The translations under genes and the position numbers were made by a program. Source: Salinarchaeum sp. IM2453 (GTDB taxonomy: Archaea; Halobacteriota; Halobacteria; Halobacteriales; Salinarchaeaceae). From it: 64,000 nt of DNA. The DNA is taken from contig NZ_CP081183.1 in NCBI RefSeq assembly GCF_019693215.1, positions 1,801,226 through 1,865,225 on the forward strand, in the 5' to 3' direction. Under the pieces are notes generated by a model. It made no database searches. It was given only the letters and a program-made list of their open reading frames with translations, and was not told where the DNA came from. Shown here piece after piece: positions 9,294 through 60,043 of the stretch. Within the stretch, counting starts at the first letter, position 1. Every line of letters begins with the position of its first letter.

Positions 9294-12227
9294 TTATTCA
9301 TCTTTGTCTTTAACAATCGTCACATCCTGATATACGGGATTATGTATGTCGTCTGTTTCATCATCACTGTCTGGGGGAGGAACAATTGTTTCTAATTTTC
9401 TTTCTTTATCACTAGGATCAGGTTCCTTAATAATAACTACATCAGCTTGCTGTTGCTGACGAAGCTTCTCTCCTGGAGATTCTTCCGAGGTTTTTTGCTG
9501 GCTGTTTATTCCGTCGTTTGCTGGCTCAACTATGGAACTGTCTCTCTGCTGTTGTTCTTTTTGCGCCGTTTTATTTCTTATCTGGTGATGAGCCTTCTGC
9601 TTGTCTTTCTGTGTCGGTGCATTCGCAGAGGAACCATTACTTGGAGGCTCATCCTCTGATGGGGATCCTCCGGGAGGTGATCCAATGTATCTTGTCCACA
9701 GTACTAGCAGCGACGGAAGAACCAACACACTTGCTAAGAACGCGTATATGATTGTTAACCCAGTAATAATACCAAACTGTCGTAGCACTGGGAAGATGGC
9801 GAATGAGAGTGTTCCAAATGCTCCTACTGTTGTTGCAGCACTTCCAACCAGTGCTCCCCCTGTACCGGTAACTGTGGTATATAATGCATCCCAGACTGTG
9901 TCTTGGCGCTCTAGCTCAAGCTGATAGCGAGCACTAATGTGGATACTGTATGCGATTCCCAGTCCAATTGTGAGTGACGTAATTGTTCCTGTTAGCACGT
10001 TAAATGGGATATCGAGAACCCACATTGACCCGAGGATCCACATTACTGACAGCACTACAGGGAGTAATGTGATAACTCCAAGTGATGCTGTATTACCAGC
10101 GAAGTAGTACCCAACAATCATGAATACAAACACAGCAATAAGCGTGAGTACTAGTCCCTGTAGGACCGTACTTAGAAGATCTGCTTCAACATCTGAGAAA
10201 ATAATTGGTTCGCCAGTAGCTTGAATCTGTAAGTTCCCATCGCTAATCTCTTCGAGTTCGCTTGCCACTCCTCTCATCTCCTCAGTTACCTCGCCGATAT
10301 CTGCATCGCCTTCTACTTCAACTGTCATCCGTAATGCTTCATATTCTCCTTCTTCTGTGCGATAGATAACATCAGCTCCAGAGGCTGCGGTTTCCGGATC
10401 ATCAAGCAACAGTCCATACAGTTCTTCGATATTCCTGACTGGGATGTCATTATCTGTAGACTCGTTGTATAGATCATTGAACGCCTCATTCTCACCATCG
10501 GCTCTAGTCTGCTGCATAACCGTTAGAGGAGAGGTAATATCTGCTTCTCCAGTTGCTGGCTCAATAATTACCGTCTCTTGTTCGTTGAGGGACTCCTGTC
10601 CCTCAGAGATCCATTGTAATGTCTCATTTGCCGTTGTTTCACCCTGTATTAGAAAGTCTATGTCACTTCCTTCGGTTAGGAATGTCTCTTGGATATAGGA
10701 AAGATCAGCTTTGGCCTGATATGTACCCGGAGCAAATGGCTCGGGGAGGTTTTGTGTCCATTCTGGAGGACTATCTGCTAAGAAGTCCTCTTCTTGGAAG
10801 CTTGTATCTACTTGCGTAGCTCCGTATACTCCTCCGGCAGTAATTAACAGTGCAATAATGACAACAGTAAATGGAACTCGCCGGGCTAAGCGAGCCCCTA
10901 CCGAAAGCATGCCAGAGAAGATTGATCCACCTGTCCCGAATGCCCGTTTCTCTCTGTTGAAGCCAAATCGCTCCAGTAGCCCATCAATCTCAATCTTAAG
11001 TGCTGGCGTGAGTATACCGAATACCAACAGTGCTGAAACGACTCCAAACGTTGCAACAATACCGAAATCTTGCAGTGGACCAATTGGACTGGCCAGATTT
11101 GCAAGGAATCCAATCGCAGCGGTTACGGTTACCCACACAAGTGCGACCCCAACCCCGGCAAGCGCAAGTGTCATCGATCGGCGGACATCAGCATCTGACT
11201 CACCCCGTTTCTCACGATGCCGCATAAACACGTGTATTGCATAATCAATTGAGAGCCCGATCAGTAATACTGGAACTGAGATGAGCAACTGATTGAATGG
11301 GATATCTGCAAATCCCATGAATCCGAACATCCAGATCAAAACAGCAACAACCCCAAACATCCCAAGCAAGATATCAACGATATCGCGGTAGGCAACTGAT
11401 AATGCAACAACAACAAATAAAAGCGCCAACGGCCCGACAATAATGAAGCTATCTCCTAATGATCGTTCAATTTCGTCGGCAAGAATACCCGGTCCGAATA
11501 ATGCATATGTCTCTTCACGGTCATTTGCAATGTCACGAATATCCAACTGCGCATCTGTCACTGTGCTAAATTCCTGTACATTACCGAACGACGGGCTACC
11601 AGTGCTTTGCGCGATAACGACTAATTGCGCTTCTGCTTCTACTGAACCAGGCTCATATGCTTCTGGTAGCAATGAAAGATAGCGAGGATCTCGATCGTTA
11701 CTTAACGTTTGTAATTTTTCCTCAAGCTCTTCTTCTGAAAGATCTTCCTCAATATATTCAATTCGATTTTCAATCTGGCTTGTTTTGTTCTCTATCGTTT
11801 GAGGCGGCTGATTTAGTTGCCCTTCTCCTTCAACGTCTATTAATCCGGCTACACTTTGGAACGGCGACCTGCGATCAAGTGTTTCACCTACCGATTCTGA
11901 TTCAAGCAGTTCTTTTTGGAATTCTAACGTTGCAACCAGCGCATCTTGTGAGAGAGCATTTTCCCCTTCATCAGCACGATACGCCGCTTGGACAGCTGAT
12001 TGTTGGAATTCATCCTCATCATCGTCCATCTCTACCCCGAAATTCTCATTAATGTAATCTTGTGCTTCTGTTGCTTCTGATTCGGACTCGAACTGTTCAA
12101 CTTCCGAATCCTGCTCAACCATCGGCACCCCAACAGCAAATCCAGCAGTAGTTAGCAGTAATACAACAATGAGGATCTTACTGTGTGCCGTAATAAAGTC
12201 CGCAATCCGATTAGGCAAGTCACTCAT
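9294..12227 (-). CDS. RND-superfamily exporter (MMPL-like)
   Basis: A 977-residue protein built as two repeats, each with one N-terminal TM helix, a large extracytoplasmic domain and about five TM helices. This is the RND/MMPL exporter architecture. Conserved helix pieces LLIGLSIDYAIHVFMRHR and LTIGLGIAYSIHISARYQ mark the fourth helix of each repeat, with the charged residue of the proton relay position. Related proteins export lipids, hopanoids or drugs; the substrate here is unknown. After the last helix there is an unusual tail of about 130 residues rich in Gln, Lys, Ser, Asp and Pro. There is no membrane-fusion partner nearby. Start MSDLPNRIADF at 12227. Confidence 0.85.
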   Translation of the reverse strand: MSDLPNRIADFITAHSKILIVVLLLTTAGFAVGVPMVEQDSEVEQFESESEATEAQDYINENFGVEMDDDEDEFQQSAVQAAYRADEGENALSQDALVATLEFQKELLESESVGETLDRRSPFQSVAGLIDVEGEGQLNQPPQTIENKTSQIENRIEYIEEDLSEEELEEKLQTLSNDRDPRYLSLLPEAYEPGSVEAEAQLVVIAQSTGSPSFGNVQEFSTVTDAQLDIRDIANDREETYALFGPGILADEIERSLGDSFIIVGPLALLFVVVALSVAYRDIVDILLGMFGVVAVLIWMFGFMGFADIPFNQLLISVPVLLIGLSIDYAIHVFMRHREKRGESDADVRRSMTLALAGVGVALVWVTVTAAIGFLANLASPIGPLQDFGIVATFGVVSALLVFGILTPALKIEIDGLLERFGFNREKRAFGTGGSIFSGMLSVGARLARRVPFTVVIIALLITAGGVYGATQVDTSFQEEDFLADSPPEWTQNLPEPFAPGTYQAKADLSYIQETFLTEGSDIDFLIQGETTANETLQWISEGQESLNEQETVIIEPATGEADITSPLTVMQQTRADGENEAFNDLYNESTDNDIPVRNIEELYGLLLDDPETAASGADVIYRTEEGEYEALRMTVEVEGDADIGEVTEEMRGVASELEEISDGNLQIQATGEPIIFSDVEADLLSTVLQGLVLTLIAVFVFMIVGYYFAGNTASLGVITLLPVVLSVMWILGSMWVLDIPFNVLTGTITSLTIGLGIAYSIHISARYQLELERQDTVWDALYTTVTGTGGALVGSAATTVGAFGTLSFAIFPVLRQFGIITGLTIIYAFLASVLVLPSLLVLWTRYIGSPPGGSPSEDEPPSNGSSANAPTQKDKQKAHHQIRNKTAQKEQQQRDSSIVEPANDGINSQQKTSEESPGEKLRQQQQADVVIIKEPDPSDKERKLETIVPPPDSDDETDDIHNPVYQDVTIVKDKDE

Positions 12228-51755: not shown

Positions 51756-53220
51756 GCTTACGGCGTTAGCAAGGCGAACGCCCACCCGTTTACGGGTGTG
51801 GATGAAGCCGACAACTGGGAATCGTTCCACGCTCGTAGCCATGGCTGGATATTCCACGCCGAGAACCAACAGTTATCTAAGAAAAAATACTATGCTTACA
51901 TATGTCGAATCAGGTCGTCACGCGGACACTCAAAGCGAGTATCCGTAACCACTCGCAAGTCTGTGACGACCTTGATTCGCACGGCTTTGCCGCGTCAAAA
52001 TTGTGGAACGTCGGGCGATGGACGATTTCGCGTGTCTGGGACGCCATCGGCCACATTCTAGACGCCGACGAACTCTGTTCGCACCTCAAATCACACGACC
52101 GCTATGCAGACCTACACAGCCAATCTAGTCAGCGAGTTCTTCAGGAACTCGGTGAGGCGTTCGTCTCGTGGTACGAACAGGACGACCCAGACGCCAATCC
52201 ACCCGGCTACCGCAAACACGGCGATGACCACCCCCGCTCAACCGTGACGTGGAAAAATCAAGGCTTCAAACTCGATACCCAGTACAACCGCGTCCGTCTC
52301 TCGAAAGGCACGAACATGAAAGAGTCGCGCTATGCCGCCGACTACATCCTCTGTGAATACACGCTCCAGACAGCCGAGCAGACACTCGACGCTGTTGAGA
52401 ACGTCCAGACGGTGCGTGCTGTCTGGACCGGCGAGCAGTGGGAGTTGCATTTTGTCTGCAAGCTGCGGGTTGAGACGCCTGAGACACCCGGTGAGAAGAC
52501 CGCAGGTGTTGACCTTGGGATCTGTAACACAGCGGCAATCTCTGTCGGTGACGAGACACTACTGTATCCCGGCAACGCTCTGAAAGAAGACGCCCATTAC
52601 TTCCGACAGCAAGAATACGAGACGGAGGGGAAAAATGACCCCAGCGACCACGCAGAGTGGGCCAGACAGAAGAAATCCCGGCGGCAAGACCACTTTCTGC
52701 ATGCCCTCTCGAAAGACATTGTTGAGCAGTGTGCTGACCGAGGTGTTGGGACAATTGCCGTCGGCCATCCGAAGAACATCTGTGAGGATGAAGACTGGGG
52801 GCGACACGGCAACAAACGCCTGCACGACTGGGCGTTTGAAACACTACTCAGCCACATCGAGTACAAAGCCCAAGAACGCGGGATCGACGTAGAGCGTGTA
52901 GACGAAGCAGGGTCGAAAACGTCGAAAACCTGTTGTGAGTATGGAACGGAAGCTGAGTCGAATCGAGTCGAACGTGGGCTGTACGTGTGTGCAAACTGCG
53001 GGTTGGTCGCCAATAGCGACCTGAACGCGGCAGAGAATATGCGAGCGACGGTAACTCCGAATCCGACACAGGATAGGAGTAACGGCTGTTTGGCTCAGCC
53101 TTCGGTACGCCTGTTCGATAAACAAACGGGGCGAGTAGCCCCACAAGAACAGGTTGTATCGTGAACCCTAATATCCCAACGTGGGAATCCCACGGCTTCA
53201 GCCGTGTGGAAGAAGTCAAA
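51756..53220 (+). mobile_element. IS1341-type (IS200/IS605 family) element with tnpB only
   Basis: About 1.46 kb bordered by a left end hairpin (about 51765-51810, GGCGAACGCCCACCCG…CGGGTGTGG) and a right end (53181-53220, GTGGGAATCCCAC, hairpin, GAAGTCAAA). It carries no tnpA, so it must be moved in trans. It is visibly more GC-rich than its neighbours, consistent with recent arrival. A deletion derivative with the same ends lies at 34688-35117. Confidence 0.75.
51902..53164 (+). CDS. tnpB: TnpB-family RNA-guided nuclease, possibly defective
   Basis: A 420-residue TnpB of the haloarchaeal OrfB clade. RuvC-I Asp is in AGVDLGICNTA (D204) and RuvC-III Asp in NSDLNAAENM (D373). The usual RuvC-II Glu position reads AVGHP (G288), with acidic residues only a few positions later (CEDEDW); this clade may use those. 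The Zn-ribbon should be CxxC…CxxC, but the first pair reads C344-C-E-Y347, so one Cys is Tyr while C363 and C366 remain. The enzyme cuts DNA guided by RNA from its right end; this copy may be inactive or altered. Codon use is GC-rich compared with the flanks. Confidence 0.88.
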   Translation: MSNQVVTRTLKASIRNHSQVCDDLDSHGFAASKLWNVGRWTISRVWDAIGHILDADELCSHLKSHDRYADLHSQSSQRVLQELGEAFVSWYEQDDPDANPPGYRKHGDDHPRSTVTWKNQGFKLDTQYNRVRLSKGTNMKESRYAADYILCEYTLQTAEQTLDAVENVQTVRAVWTGEQWELHFVCKLRVETPETPGEKTAGVDLGICNTAAISVGDETLLYPGNALKEDAHYFRQQEYETEGKNDPSDHAEWARQKKSRRQDHFLHALSKDIVEQCADRGVGTIAVGHPKNICEDEDWGRHGNKRLHDWAFETLLSHIEYKAQERGIDVERVDEAGSKTSKTCCEYGTEAESNRVERGLYVCANCGLVANSDLNAAENMRATVTPNPTQDRSNGCLAQPSVRLFDKQTGRVAPQEQVVS

Positions 53221-56608: not shown

Positions 56609-58144
56609 ATGGGAATTACTGTCGGGATTGATTTAGGTACAACCAATAGTGTGGTAGCGCGTCTTAATGAGGATGGTGAGCCGGTAATCCTCAAAAATAG
56701 TGAAGGAAAACAAAAAACACGGTCTGTTGTGCAGTTCAGAGAAAATGAGACTGTTGTTGGCGAGGCTGCACTGCGTGCCGCACTGCGATTTCCTGATACA
56801 ACTGTTCGTCAAATTAAGCGATATATGGGCGATGAAAAATGGGAAATTGAGGCGTACGGAGAAACGTATACGCCAGAACAGATCTCTGCTCTTATTCTTG
56901 AAAAACTGATCAAAGATGCTGAAGAAGAGATTGGTGGAGAAGAGATAGATGAAGCAGTTATCACCGTTCCAGCATACTTTGGTGCCAAAGAGCGCGAAGC
57001 AACCAAAAACGCAGCCGAGATTGCCGGCATCGAAGTCAAACGTCTGCTTAATGAACCAACTGCTGCATGTCTTCGGTATGGTCTTGAGGATGACGAAGAG
57101 ACCGTTCTCGTCTATGATCTTGGCGGTGGAACATTCGACGCAACAGTTGTCAACCTCAGCCAAAAAGATGGCGTCACTGTAGACGGTGTCAAAGGTGGCC
57201 AACAACTTGGTGGCGATGACTTTGACCGAGCGCTGTATGAAGAAGTAATGTATGAAGAGTTCGTTGATCAGGTCGATCAAGATCCAGCAAAAGATGACGA
57301 ACTAGAGTGGCAGCTACTTGAGACAGCAAAAGAGGTCAAGGAAGATCTATCTGTGGCTGAGTCAGCTTGGGCAACGATGAACCTTGGCACAGAGTCCTAC
57401 GAGCAGGAGATAACTCGTGAGGAGTTTAATGAGGCGACAGAGCACCTTGTCGACGAGACGCTTGATATTATTGACGACTTATTTGACAGTGATAATGTTG
57501 GATCTAAAAAAGACGACGTTGACCGTGTACTTCTTGTTGGTGGGTCCACCCGCATCCCAATTGTCCAGCAACGAGTTGAAGACTACTTTGATGTTGAACC
57601 GTCAAAGGAACTCGATCAGGATATGGTTGTAGCAGAAGGAGCAGCAATGGCAACTGATCTTGAACAACTTGAGATGAAACTTGACGGAGACTTCCAAGGC
57701 GAAGGAAGCTCCGTATTTACTGATGTTGTCTCCAAAACAATTGGGATTGAAGCAGTTGACTTACAGAGTGAAGATGGCGATACACGATTTGTTCCGGTTC
57801 TTGAGGAGAATACCGAGGTACCTGCAACAAGTGAACGTGAGGATTTCACCACCGTTGAGGATGGCCAGACATCACTTGAGATTCGGATATTAGAAGGCGG
57901 CGATCCAGACCCAGAGAAAAATGAACGGTTAGGAAGGTTCATGCTTGAAGGCATCCCCCGTCAGCCAGCAGGAGAACCGGAGTTCCGAATAACGTTCAGA
58001 GTAGACGAGGACGGCGTTCTTCACGCTGAAGCTGAGAATATTGAAACAGGTGAGCAGGCTGATACCACACTTGATATCGGGCTTTCACAGACAGGCATTG
58101 CCGTTGCCCGTGAACAACACGAGGAAATCCCAGACGTCCGATAG
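56609..58144 (+). CDS. DnaK-type chaperone without the C-terminal lid
   Basis: A 511-residue Hsp70. The ATPase domain is complete, with phosphate-1 GIDLGTTNS (6-14), Lys70, phosphate-2 DLGGGTFD (170-177), ADP motif NEPTAACLRYG and adenosine motif LLVGGSTRIP. The substrate-binding β-sandwich follows to about residue 500. The helical lid, normally to about residue 620-640, is missing, and the stop is clean with no frameshift seen. It is probably ATP-active with fast, weak substrate binding. It precedes by 21 bp the fused Hsp70-like/GrpE-like gene and lacks a dnaJ neighbour. The canonical grpE-dnaK-dnaJ locus of haloarchaea is presumably elsewhere. Confidence 0.88.
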   Translation: MGITVGIDLGTTNSVVARLNEDGEPVILKNSEGKQKTRSVVQFRENETVVGEAALRAALRFPDTTVRQIKRYMGDEKWEIEAYGETYTPEQISALILEKLIKDAEEEIGGEEIDEAVITVPAYFGAKEREATKNAAEIAGIEVKRLLNEPTAACLRYGLEDDEETVLVYDLGGGTFDATVVNLSQKDGVTVDGVKGGQQLGGDDFDRALYEEVMYEEFVDQVDQDPAKDDELEWQLLETAKEVKEDLSVAESAWATMNLGTESYEQEITREEFNEATEHLVDETLDIIDDLFDSDNVGSKKDDVDRVLLVGGSTRIPIVQQRVEDYFDVEPSKELDQDMVVAEGAAMATDLEQLEMKLDGDFQGEGSSVFTDVVSKTIGIEAVDLQSEDGDTRFVPVLEENTEVPATSEREDFTTVEDGQTSLEIRILEGGDPDPEKNERLGRFMLEGIPRQPAGEPEFRITFRVDEDGVLHAEAENIETGEQADTTLDIGLSQTGIAVAREQHEEIPDVR

Positions 58145-58165
58145 TTTTATTCATCTTTTTTATCA

Positions 58166-60043
58166 ATGAGCGATAGAAATCAGAGCCAAAAAAAGCGCTT
58201 TGGAGTGGATATCGGGACTCGAACTGCTATATTAGGCTATTCTGCTGACAGTAACCCAATGATAATTAACGCACAGGAGGGCCAAGAGACGATACCTGTT
58301 CGAATGAACCTCTCTTCAGAGACCACACAGGTTGGGTATGAGGTCGACCCAAAATCTAGTAGCAGCCTACGACCTGGACAAGCGTTTGGAGAACGCCTGT
58401 TGGATCTGTCCAGCAGCGATGTTGATGTTAAATCACTCCCAATCGTTCAATTTCTTGCTGAAGCAAAATCCATCTGGGAAACTCATGCGCCGACTGAAAC
58501 GTTTGATTCTCCTGAAGTTCTTTGTGTTGTCCCTGCTGGCATTGGGCCTGATGAGCGTAAATTTATAACCTCTGTGTTCAATCATGCTGGTTTCTCGTCG
58601 GCTGGTGTTGTTCGGTCCCCGATCCCAACAACGATTATTGACCGATCAAATCAAGAGTTGGGAGAACCACTTGTTGTTGCAAATATTGGCTCTTACTGGC
58701 TCAATGCTGCCGTACTAACCCCTAAGCCTGATGCATTTGAATATGAAATCCACTCAAGAATCTGCGCCGCAGGTGTTGGGGTGGGTTCGTTTGAAGAAGC
58801 GATTGTTGAGTGGCTTCTTGCAAACTTCGATGAGCAACTATCAAATACAACGTTTTCCGAGTTACTTCCCTATGTTGTAGACGCTGTTGAGCGTTTAAGC
58901 AAAACTAGTGATAACCAAGTTGAATTCACAATCAACGGTAAGACTGTTCTTATTGATGGTTCTGTAATTCATCGTGCATTAGAGACAACTGCTCCGGAGA
59001 TCAAATGTCATCTGAAGGATCTATTTAGCGCAGCTAATCTATCTCCTGAGGATATCTCTGATGTTGTCATCTCGGGTGGCGGAAGTATGTTTCCTATCGT
59101 ACAGCAAGTGTTTGAGGGGTACTTTGGTCAACAGCCCCGTAATCCTGATCACGGTACTCCTGTAACCGCTCCAACACTTGGTGCTAGCCTCCTTGCTCAA
59201 CGCGATAAAGAGATCAAGCAAGTTGATAATCTCTTGTATCGCGATTTGACTGTCGAAGTTATTAGTGACAAGGGAATTCAAGCACGGCCCATATCTAATT
59301 CTCCAATCTCTGTAGGCGAGTCTCAAAGCATTACTCTCCAAACCACCGTCGACGACCAAATCTATGGGAAAGTCCGAATTGGCGGCCGTCATCTCCTCAC
59401 TGGAGAGACTGAGCCTATTACAACTGCTGAGATTACCGGACTTCCAATGCAAGATGCTGGTTCCACGAGCCTTGAGCTTACTGTTACTCCTCACAATCAA
59501 GACCCAACAGACATCTCATGTGAGGCGACGATCTGTGGTAGTAATAACCTTGGCGAACACATAGAGATAACCAAGATACAGAGTGACTTTGATAATGGTC
59601 CTTGGTTTGCGCTTTCTGGAGTTGATTTGAACGCAGTTTCAATACCAACCAGAGATAGCCAGCCTCTGCAGACAACCCCTGATGATTATTCAGACATAAA
59701 TCCGATTGACGCAATTGATCGGGTATTTACCATTCGGAATGAGCTCTGGACAGTAATTCAAAACAACGGTGATATGTCAGCTGATGACTTACAAATTCGT
59801 CTTGAGAAACTGGATCTCGGTCTCAAACGTGCCGGGGTAGACGTAATTGACCCAGAAATCGGCGAACAGGTGGACGATCGAAAACACCTCATCAGATCAA
59901 TGAGACCGAGCAATCGCCCTGAGGGTGAAATAATTGAAGTTACTCGTCCTGGATATCAAGTCGGTAATGTGGTGGAAGAAGCAGCACATGTTGCAATTAG
60001 CAGTGGGCCGACTGAAGACATCTCTACACCTGAAGACAACTAG
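58166..60043 (+). CDS. Degenerate Hsp70-like protein fused to a GrpE-like domain
   Basis: A 625-residue fusion. Residues about 10-345 follow the Hsp70 ATPase fold but with degraded motifs: GVDIGTRTA for phosphate-1, VANIGSYWLN where DLGGGTFD belongs, SPIPTTI for NEPTAA, and ISGGGSMFP for the adenosine motif. A β-rich SBD-like part spans about 360-490. Residues about 512-612 read as GrpE: a helical IDAIDRVFTIRN…LEKLDLGLKRAG, then VDVIDPEIGEQV, EGEIIEVTRPGYQVG and VVEEAAHVAIS, as in the GrpE β-domain. It is likely a dedicated exchange/regulatory partner of the upstream lidless DnaK, co-transcribed across a 21-bp gap. The GrpE similarity is by eye; the function is inferred. Confidence 0.8.
   Translation: MSDRNQSQKKRFGVDIGTRTAILGYSADSNPMIINAQEGQETIPVRMNLSSETTQVGYEVDPKSSSSLRPGQAFGERLLDLSSSDVDVKSLPIVQFLAEAKSIWETHAPTETFDSPEVLCVVPAGIGPDERKFITSVFNHAGFSSAGVVRSPIPTTIIDRSNQELGEPLVVANIGSYWLNAAVLTPKPDAFEYEIHSRICAAGVGVGSFEEAIVEWLLANFDEQLSNTTFSELLPYVVDAVERLSKTSDNQVEFTINGKTVLIDGSVIHRALETTAPEIKCHLKDLFSAANLSPEDISDVVISGGGSMFPIVQQVFEGYFGQQPRNPDHGTPVTAPTLGASLLAQRDKEIKQVDNLLYRDLTVEVISDKGIQARPISNSPISVGESQSITLQTTVDDQIYGKVRIGGRHLLTGETEPITTAEITGLPMQDAGSTSLELTVTPHNQDPTDISCEATICGSNNLGEHIEITKIQSDFDNGPWFALSGVDLNAVSIPTRDSQPLQTTPDDYSDINPIDAIDRVFTIRNELWTVIQNNGDMSADDLQIRLEKLDLGLKRAGVDVIDPEIGEQVDDRKHLIRSMRPSNRPEGEIIEVTRPGYQVGNVVEEAAHVAISSGPTEDISTPEDN

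Follow-up and report, generated by a model that had tools for sequence, protein, structure and literature searches.

A stretch of 64,000 nucleotides (hereafter the window) from the 2.66-Mb chromosome of the haloarchaeon Salinarchaeum sp. IM2453 encodes a DnaK that lacks the helical lid (P0001) and, immediately downstream, a degenerate Hsp70 that carries a GrpE-type head at its C-terminus (P0002). The two proteins may form a private Hsp70/GrpE-type pair with a rewired interface, and we see about an even chance that this is so and that the head modulates ADP release within the pair.

The two genes lie on the same strand with 21 bp between them (Table 1), and their coordinates, lengths and spacing are those given in the original prediction, which was made from the DNA sequence. 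The position of a TATA-like box upstream of the first gene suggests a leaderless or near-leaderless dnaK transcript. The flanking genes are metabolic and unrelated to the pair; upstream are genes for a PLP enzyme, a Cys/Met enzyme and a 2-hydroxyacid dehydrogenase, and downstream, on the opposite strand, is a gene for a dihydroxy-acid dehydratase. A TnpB-like IS605 OrfB gene is located upstream of this region, at positions 51902-53164 of the window. An ordinary grpE is found elsewhere in the genome, at 447 kb, and adjoins an ordinary dnaK.

Table 1. Features of the lidless DnaK and Hsp70/GrpE fusion genes (positions are those of the window)
Feature	Position	Strand	Remarks
TATA-like box ttataaa	56574..56580	+	about 30 nt 5' of the dnaK start codon; consensus resemblance only
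P0001, lidless DnaK, 511 aa	56609..58144	+	ATPase residues intact, SBD-beta, shortened IIB beta-hairpin
Intergenic gap, 21 bp, T-rich	58145..58165	+	
P0002, pseudo-Hsp70/GrpE fusion, 625 aa	58166..60043	+	
P0002 pseudo-NBD, residues 10-345	58193..59200	+	equivalents of K70, E171, T199 and K270 lost
P0002 SBD-beta-like domain, residues 359-471	59240..59578	+	
P0002 GrpE-like head, residues 513-612	59702..60001	+	two helices and a beta domain; Asp541 at the Gly122 position

P0001 is a clear member of the Hsp70 family (Pfam HSP70, E=6.1e-117), and its closest solved chain is the Geobacillus DnaK (2v7y). The catalytic positions D8, T11, T12, K70, E171, D194, T199, D201 and K270 are all intact, as is the GGSTR motif, and SBD-beta is present. 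The protein ends about 20 residues past SBD-beta with no helical lid, whereas canonical haloarchaeal DnaKs reach 628-694 residues. These features bear out the description of P0001 as a DnaK with every ATPase motif and no lid. Two other features set it apart from canonical DnaKs. The lidless DnaKs have a modified interdomain linker (VFTDV in P0001 versus the hydrophobic VLLDV of canonical DnaK), and the IIB beta-hairpin of P0001 has 24 residues rather than 30. P0001 also scores below the NCBIfam equivalog cut-offs for DnaK (383.5 bits versus 648, and 378.5 versus 822.55) and for HscA (368.6 versus 708.55).

The body of P0002 also matches the Pfam HSP70 family (E=1.5e-12), and a profile built from four members of the P0002 family matches Hsp70 structures across both the NBD and SBD-beta. 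However, the positions equivalent to K70, E171, T199 and K270 (E. coli DnaK numbering) are lost in all seven family members, and the T199 position is a Trp in six of them (Trp178 in P0002). Judged by its sequence, the body is a conserved pseudo-ATPase, in agreement with the degraded ATPase domain noticed originally. The predicted model of P0002 (pLDDT 73, pTM 0.59) has an NBD-like body, in which residues 47-91 are of low confidence, then the SBD-beta-like domain and a disordered linker (residues 495-515), and the PDB neighbours of the full model are Hsp70s. One correction to the original prediction is the SBD-beta-like domain that separates the pseudo-NBD from the GrpE head.

The resemblance of the P0002 head to GrpE is far beyond chance. 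Pfam GrpE (PF01025) matches P0002 with E=1.4e-7 and 31.7 bits, above the cut-off of 25.8; P0003 (29.6 bits) and P0009 (43.4 bits) pass as well, and P0011 alone falls below it (16.7 bits). A profile built from only five non-canonical heads (four fused heads and one from an ArlD-type protein) ranked two GrpE structures at the top, with E=7.3e-5 and 1.6e-4. The model of the isolated head (pLDDT 81) had GrpEs as its first twelve PDB matches (E=6.9e-7 to 1.1e-3), the best of which was 1dkg at about 1.9 Å over 100 columns, and the next match, which is not a GrpE, had E=1.6. The alignments used for both P0002 models contained ordinary GrpEs, which biases them, and the five-head profile used none. The predicted order of a helix (513-533), a second helix (539-555) and a beta domain (558-612) agrees with the GrpE-like order originally placed at about residues 512-612, so that profile searches and structure prediction, the two checks proposed for this region, both find GrpE. 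The Pfam match, the profile free of canonical GrpEs and the structural match of the isolated head rule out an ordinary Hsp70 segment at the C-terminus. The head has no long N-terminal coiled-coil helix, and the SBD-beta-like domain and the disordered linker are in its place. The head persists in different genera, and His, Pro, Gly and Trp positions within it are conserved, which argues that it has a function.

Searches for the fused protein covered the order around the window genome, where the relatives include Halorubrum, the genus of genome G109, the family of genome G293 and the phylum. The fusion and its neighbour, which the original prediction proposed to look for in other haloarchaea, were found in seven genomes besides that of the window. 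Three of the seven belong to Halorubrum (Halorubrum sp. LUM.57 and Atlit-26R are among them), two to the genus coded g20 and two to g76. A lidless DnaK is encoded directly upstream, on the same strand, in all eight genomes. The phylum-wide sample contained no further genome with the fused protein, and a scan of the genome collection with a two-row profile gave no matches.

Some of the relatives show variations on this arrangement. For example, the g76 genomes have two lidless DnaKs in tandem; the second has an intact phosphate-2 motif, and the first (L090:5485-7047, L091:5136-6683) has the altered forms DLGGRRFD and DLGGKRFD, so it is possibly a second pseudo-ATPase in the making. In genome G323 (L089:8123-9660, 9732-11579), the lidless DnaK is split over two ORFs and the fused protein has a frame change within its GrpE head, which reflects either real decay or sequencing error.

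Both partners stand apart from their canonical counterparts in the trees. One branch separates the lidless DnaKs from the canonical DnaKs in a quick tree (SH-aLRT 100), and one branch (100/99) separates the fused heads plus the ArlD head from canonical GrpE, with long branches flagged in both the DnaK and the GrpE-head trees. As judged by pairwise identity, the two partners diverge in parallel, a correlation driven in large part by the three close Halorubrum genomes.

In all seven of the other genomes, the pair is part of a cassette that encodes a vWA protein, J-like/Ig proteins, a protein of the membrane, a GTPase-like protein with a P-loop and an uncharacterized protein, P0010. The J-like domains, which are fused to Ig-like repeats, are degenerate and have no HPD motif, and neither the GTPase-like protein nor P0010 has a convincing Pfam match up to E=10. 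Near its cassette, genome G293 encodes a true J protein with the HPD motif (L073:3369-4064). PADLOC gave no defense-system match for the pair or for the cassette proteins tested. Searches of the window genome gave no homologs of the GTPase-like protein, P0010 or the vWA protein, the vWA search having been run without a positive control, and this genome appears to keep only the pair.

The original prediction interpreted the two genes as a compact chaperone cycle in which P0002 docks on the active DnaK and supplies nucleotide exchange. The analysis supports the GrpE homology, the dead ATPase of P0002 and a dedicated pair, with the two genes adjacent in all eight genomes and the partners diverging together. 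The exchange is another matter. In the E. coli complex, a hairpin of the DnaK NBD (residues 276-302) contacts the GrpE helices around Gly122, and a G122D GrpE does not accelerate nucleotide exchange (PMC10825016). Each of the seven fused proteins whose GrpE head is intact has Asp or Asn at the Gly122 position, and the ArlD head has Glu, whereas 24 of 25 ordinary haloarchaeal GrpEs have Gly. On the other side, the hairpin has 20-25 residues in eight lidless DnaKs versus 30 in 25 of 25 canonical ones, a shortening of 5-10 residues. The hairpins of Hsc70 and HscA are likewise shorter, by 4 or 10 residues (PMC10825016), and neither HscA nor HscC is thought to use GrpE. The long helix that the P0002 head lacks is essential in the M. 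tuberculosis GrpE, where it contacts both the NBD and the SBD (PMC10803776). Deletion of the DnaK lid has been reported to strengthen GrpE binding, in a reference cited within PMC10825016. The position equated with E. coli GrpE Arg183 was dropped as an argument, as it varies in ordinary haloarchaeal GrpEs too.

Exchange may therefore have been lost, because the G122D change inactivates the E. coli GrpE and because short-hairpin Hsp70s do without GrpE. If so, the head would bind the lidless DnaK, or only dimerize, without promoting exchange, and P0002 would be a scaffold or an anti-exchange brake, either keeping P0001 in a single state or offering it to other machines, as would happen in a signaling or conflict assembly. 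The missing long helix would fit such a role, and the cassette of the relatives resembles GTPase-centered systems in which Hsp70 has been proposed to act in regulated assemblies. However, the changes on the two faces fit a remodeled interface equally well, and the beta-domain part of the GrpE head is well conserved. The changes weaken the claim of ordinary exchange, yet they are reciprocal and map to surfaces that face each other in the published complex. With Asp or Asn at the Gly122 position, a short hairpin and no long helix, exchange would be possible only through a rewired interface. We favor modulation of ADP release, to which we give about even chances, and regard a pure scaffold or brake as a serious but less probable explanation.

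It is improbable that the pair in the window genome is the remnant of a decaying cassette with no role left. The cassette homologs not found in this genome would be expected of a remnant, but both ORFs are intact, all of the catalytic residues of P0001 are kept, and the GC content of the pair (0.462) is like that of the window (0.467). Least probable of all is that P0002, a GrpE homolog in the same cell, backs up nucleotide exchange on the housekeeping DnaK instead of acting on P0001, since an ordinary GrpE is already encoded beside that DnaK, P0002 has Asp at the Gly122 position and the fused genes always adjoin a lidless DnaK.

In the rewired pair that we prefer, the two proteins would be a private Hsp70 module apart from the housekeeping grpE and dnaK. 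P0001 would be the active ATPase chaperone and would bind clients through SBD-beta without a lid, and clients should therefore exchange fast. P0002 would be its obligate partner. We predict that the GrpE head dimerizes via its two-helix bundle, that its beta domain docks on the nucleotide-binding domain of P0001 and that the pseudo-Hsp70 body substitutes for the long GrpE helix. The interface would have been remodeled on both sides, with Asp in place of Gly122 and a shorter hairpin on the DnaK, and so the pair would be insulated from the housekeeping DnaK and GrpE. Inside the pair, the head would most likely still modulate ADP release. In the relatives, the module would presumably work within the cassette of GTPase-like, vWA, J-like and membrane proteins. 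Besides the doubts about exchange, the altered linker of the lidless DnaKs and the absence from the search results of at least three cassette proteins in the window genome speak against this reading.

GrpE-type exchange factors are normally separate proteins. We found no published Hsp70-GrpE fusion in a literature search whose coverage left out most subscription journals, which agrees with the original impression that the fusion is new, but GTPase systems with a separate GrpE have been described. These systems contain an HSP70, a GrpE, a second HSP70 without a peptide-binding domain and a DnaJ/FNIII protein (Kaur et al. 2020, PMC7159879), and this GAP1-N2 HSP70 theme is the nearest described arrangement. 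By its gene content, the cassette of the relatives appears to resemble it. Both have an HSP70, a GrpE and a further, degenerate HSP70; the degenerate J-like domains with Ig-like repeats may correspond to the DnaJ-linked beta-repeat (FNIII) protein, and the P-loop GTPase-like protein and P0010 may correspond to the DO-GTPase and GAP1 proteins. vWA proteins, also found in the relatives' cassette, occur in other GAP1-N2 themes. The linkage of HSP70, GrpE and second HSP70 is present here with GrpE fused to the pseudo-HSP70 rather than encoded separately, and the pseudo-HSP70 keeps an SBD-beta-like domain. Other differences are that the Ig-linked J domains lack HPD, that the GTPase-like protein and P0010 are without convincing Pfam matches, and that GAP1-N2 systems are reported mainly from actinobacteria and firmicutes, whereas the pair is in haloarchaea.

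Comparisons with better known chaperones give a similar mixture. P0001 shares its NBD and SBD-beta, and the head its helix bundle and beta domain, with the DnaK/GrpE systems of E. coli, Geobacillus and M. tuberculosis; the lid, the full hairpin, the usual linker, the long helix and Gly122 are what the pair lacks, and the head is fused to a pseudo-Hsp70. HscA and HscC are likewise specialized Hsp70s with a shortened hairpin, but HscA, which is not thought to use GrpE, keeps its lid, whereas P0001 is lidless and has a GrpE-headed partner. Hsp110/Sse1 is also an Hsp70-like protein that partners an active Hsp70 and acts as its exchange factor. Hsp110 relies on Hsp70-like domains and a helical bundle of its own, whereas P0002 lacks the extended helical lid of an Hsp110-type exchange factor and has a GrpE head instead.

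GrpE heads also occur in other settings. In the window genome, P0009 (C1:1371044-1372111; L035:9041-10111) combines a GrpE head (E=3.8e-11) with an archaellum protein of the ArlD/E type (Arch_fla_DE, E=2.7e-21), and its gene sits inside an archaellum gene cluster. The P0009 head is the sister of the P0002 head (97/93). This type of fusion was found in no other genome of the 394 searched, and just one of 19 Arch_fla_DE proteins examined has a GrpE fusion. The head could be a transferable module that docks on the lidless Hsp70, serving the chaperone pair as part of the pseudo-Hsp70 and, as part of P0009, bringing the same Hsp70 to the motility machinery, although we consider this unlikely; if true, a dedicated Hsp70 system would act on the archaellum. 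A 635-residue Hsp70-GrpE fusion, annotated only as GrpE, is encoded on a Halocatena salina plasmid (NZ_CP096020.1, L093:10656-12563), with no dnaK seen beside the gene. We count it as a separate lineage because Gly is retained at the 122 position and the hairpin is long. A Natrinema thermotolerans plasmid (CP031304.1, L094:7413-12758) has a cluster of grpE, a 565-residue dnaK-like ORF and dnaJ.

In conclusion, a conserved pseudo-Hsp70/GrpE fusion with its dedicated lidless Hsp70 suggests that the Hsp70 cycle can be reconstructed within a private pair. The fused head carries naturally a G122D-like change that is inactivating in the E. coli GrpE, which makes the pair a direct test case for rewiring of the GrpE interface, and the pair connects an archaeal Hsp70 module with a GTPase/vWA cassette.
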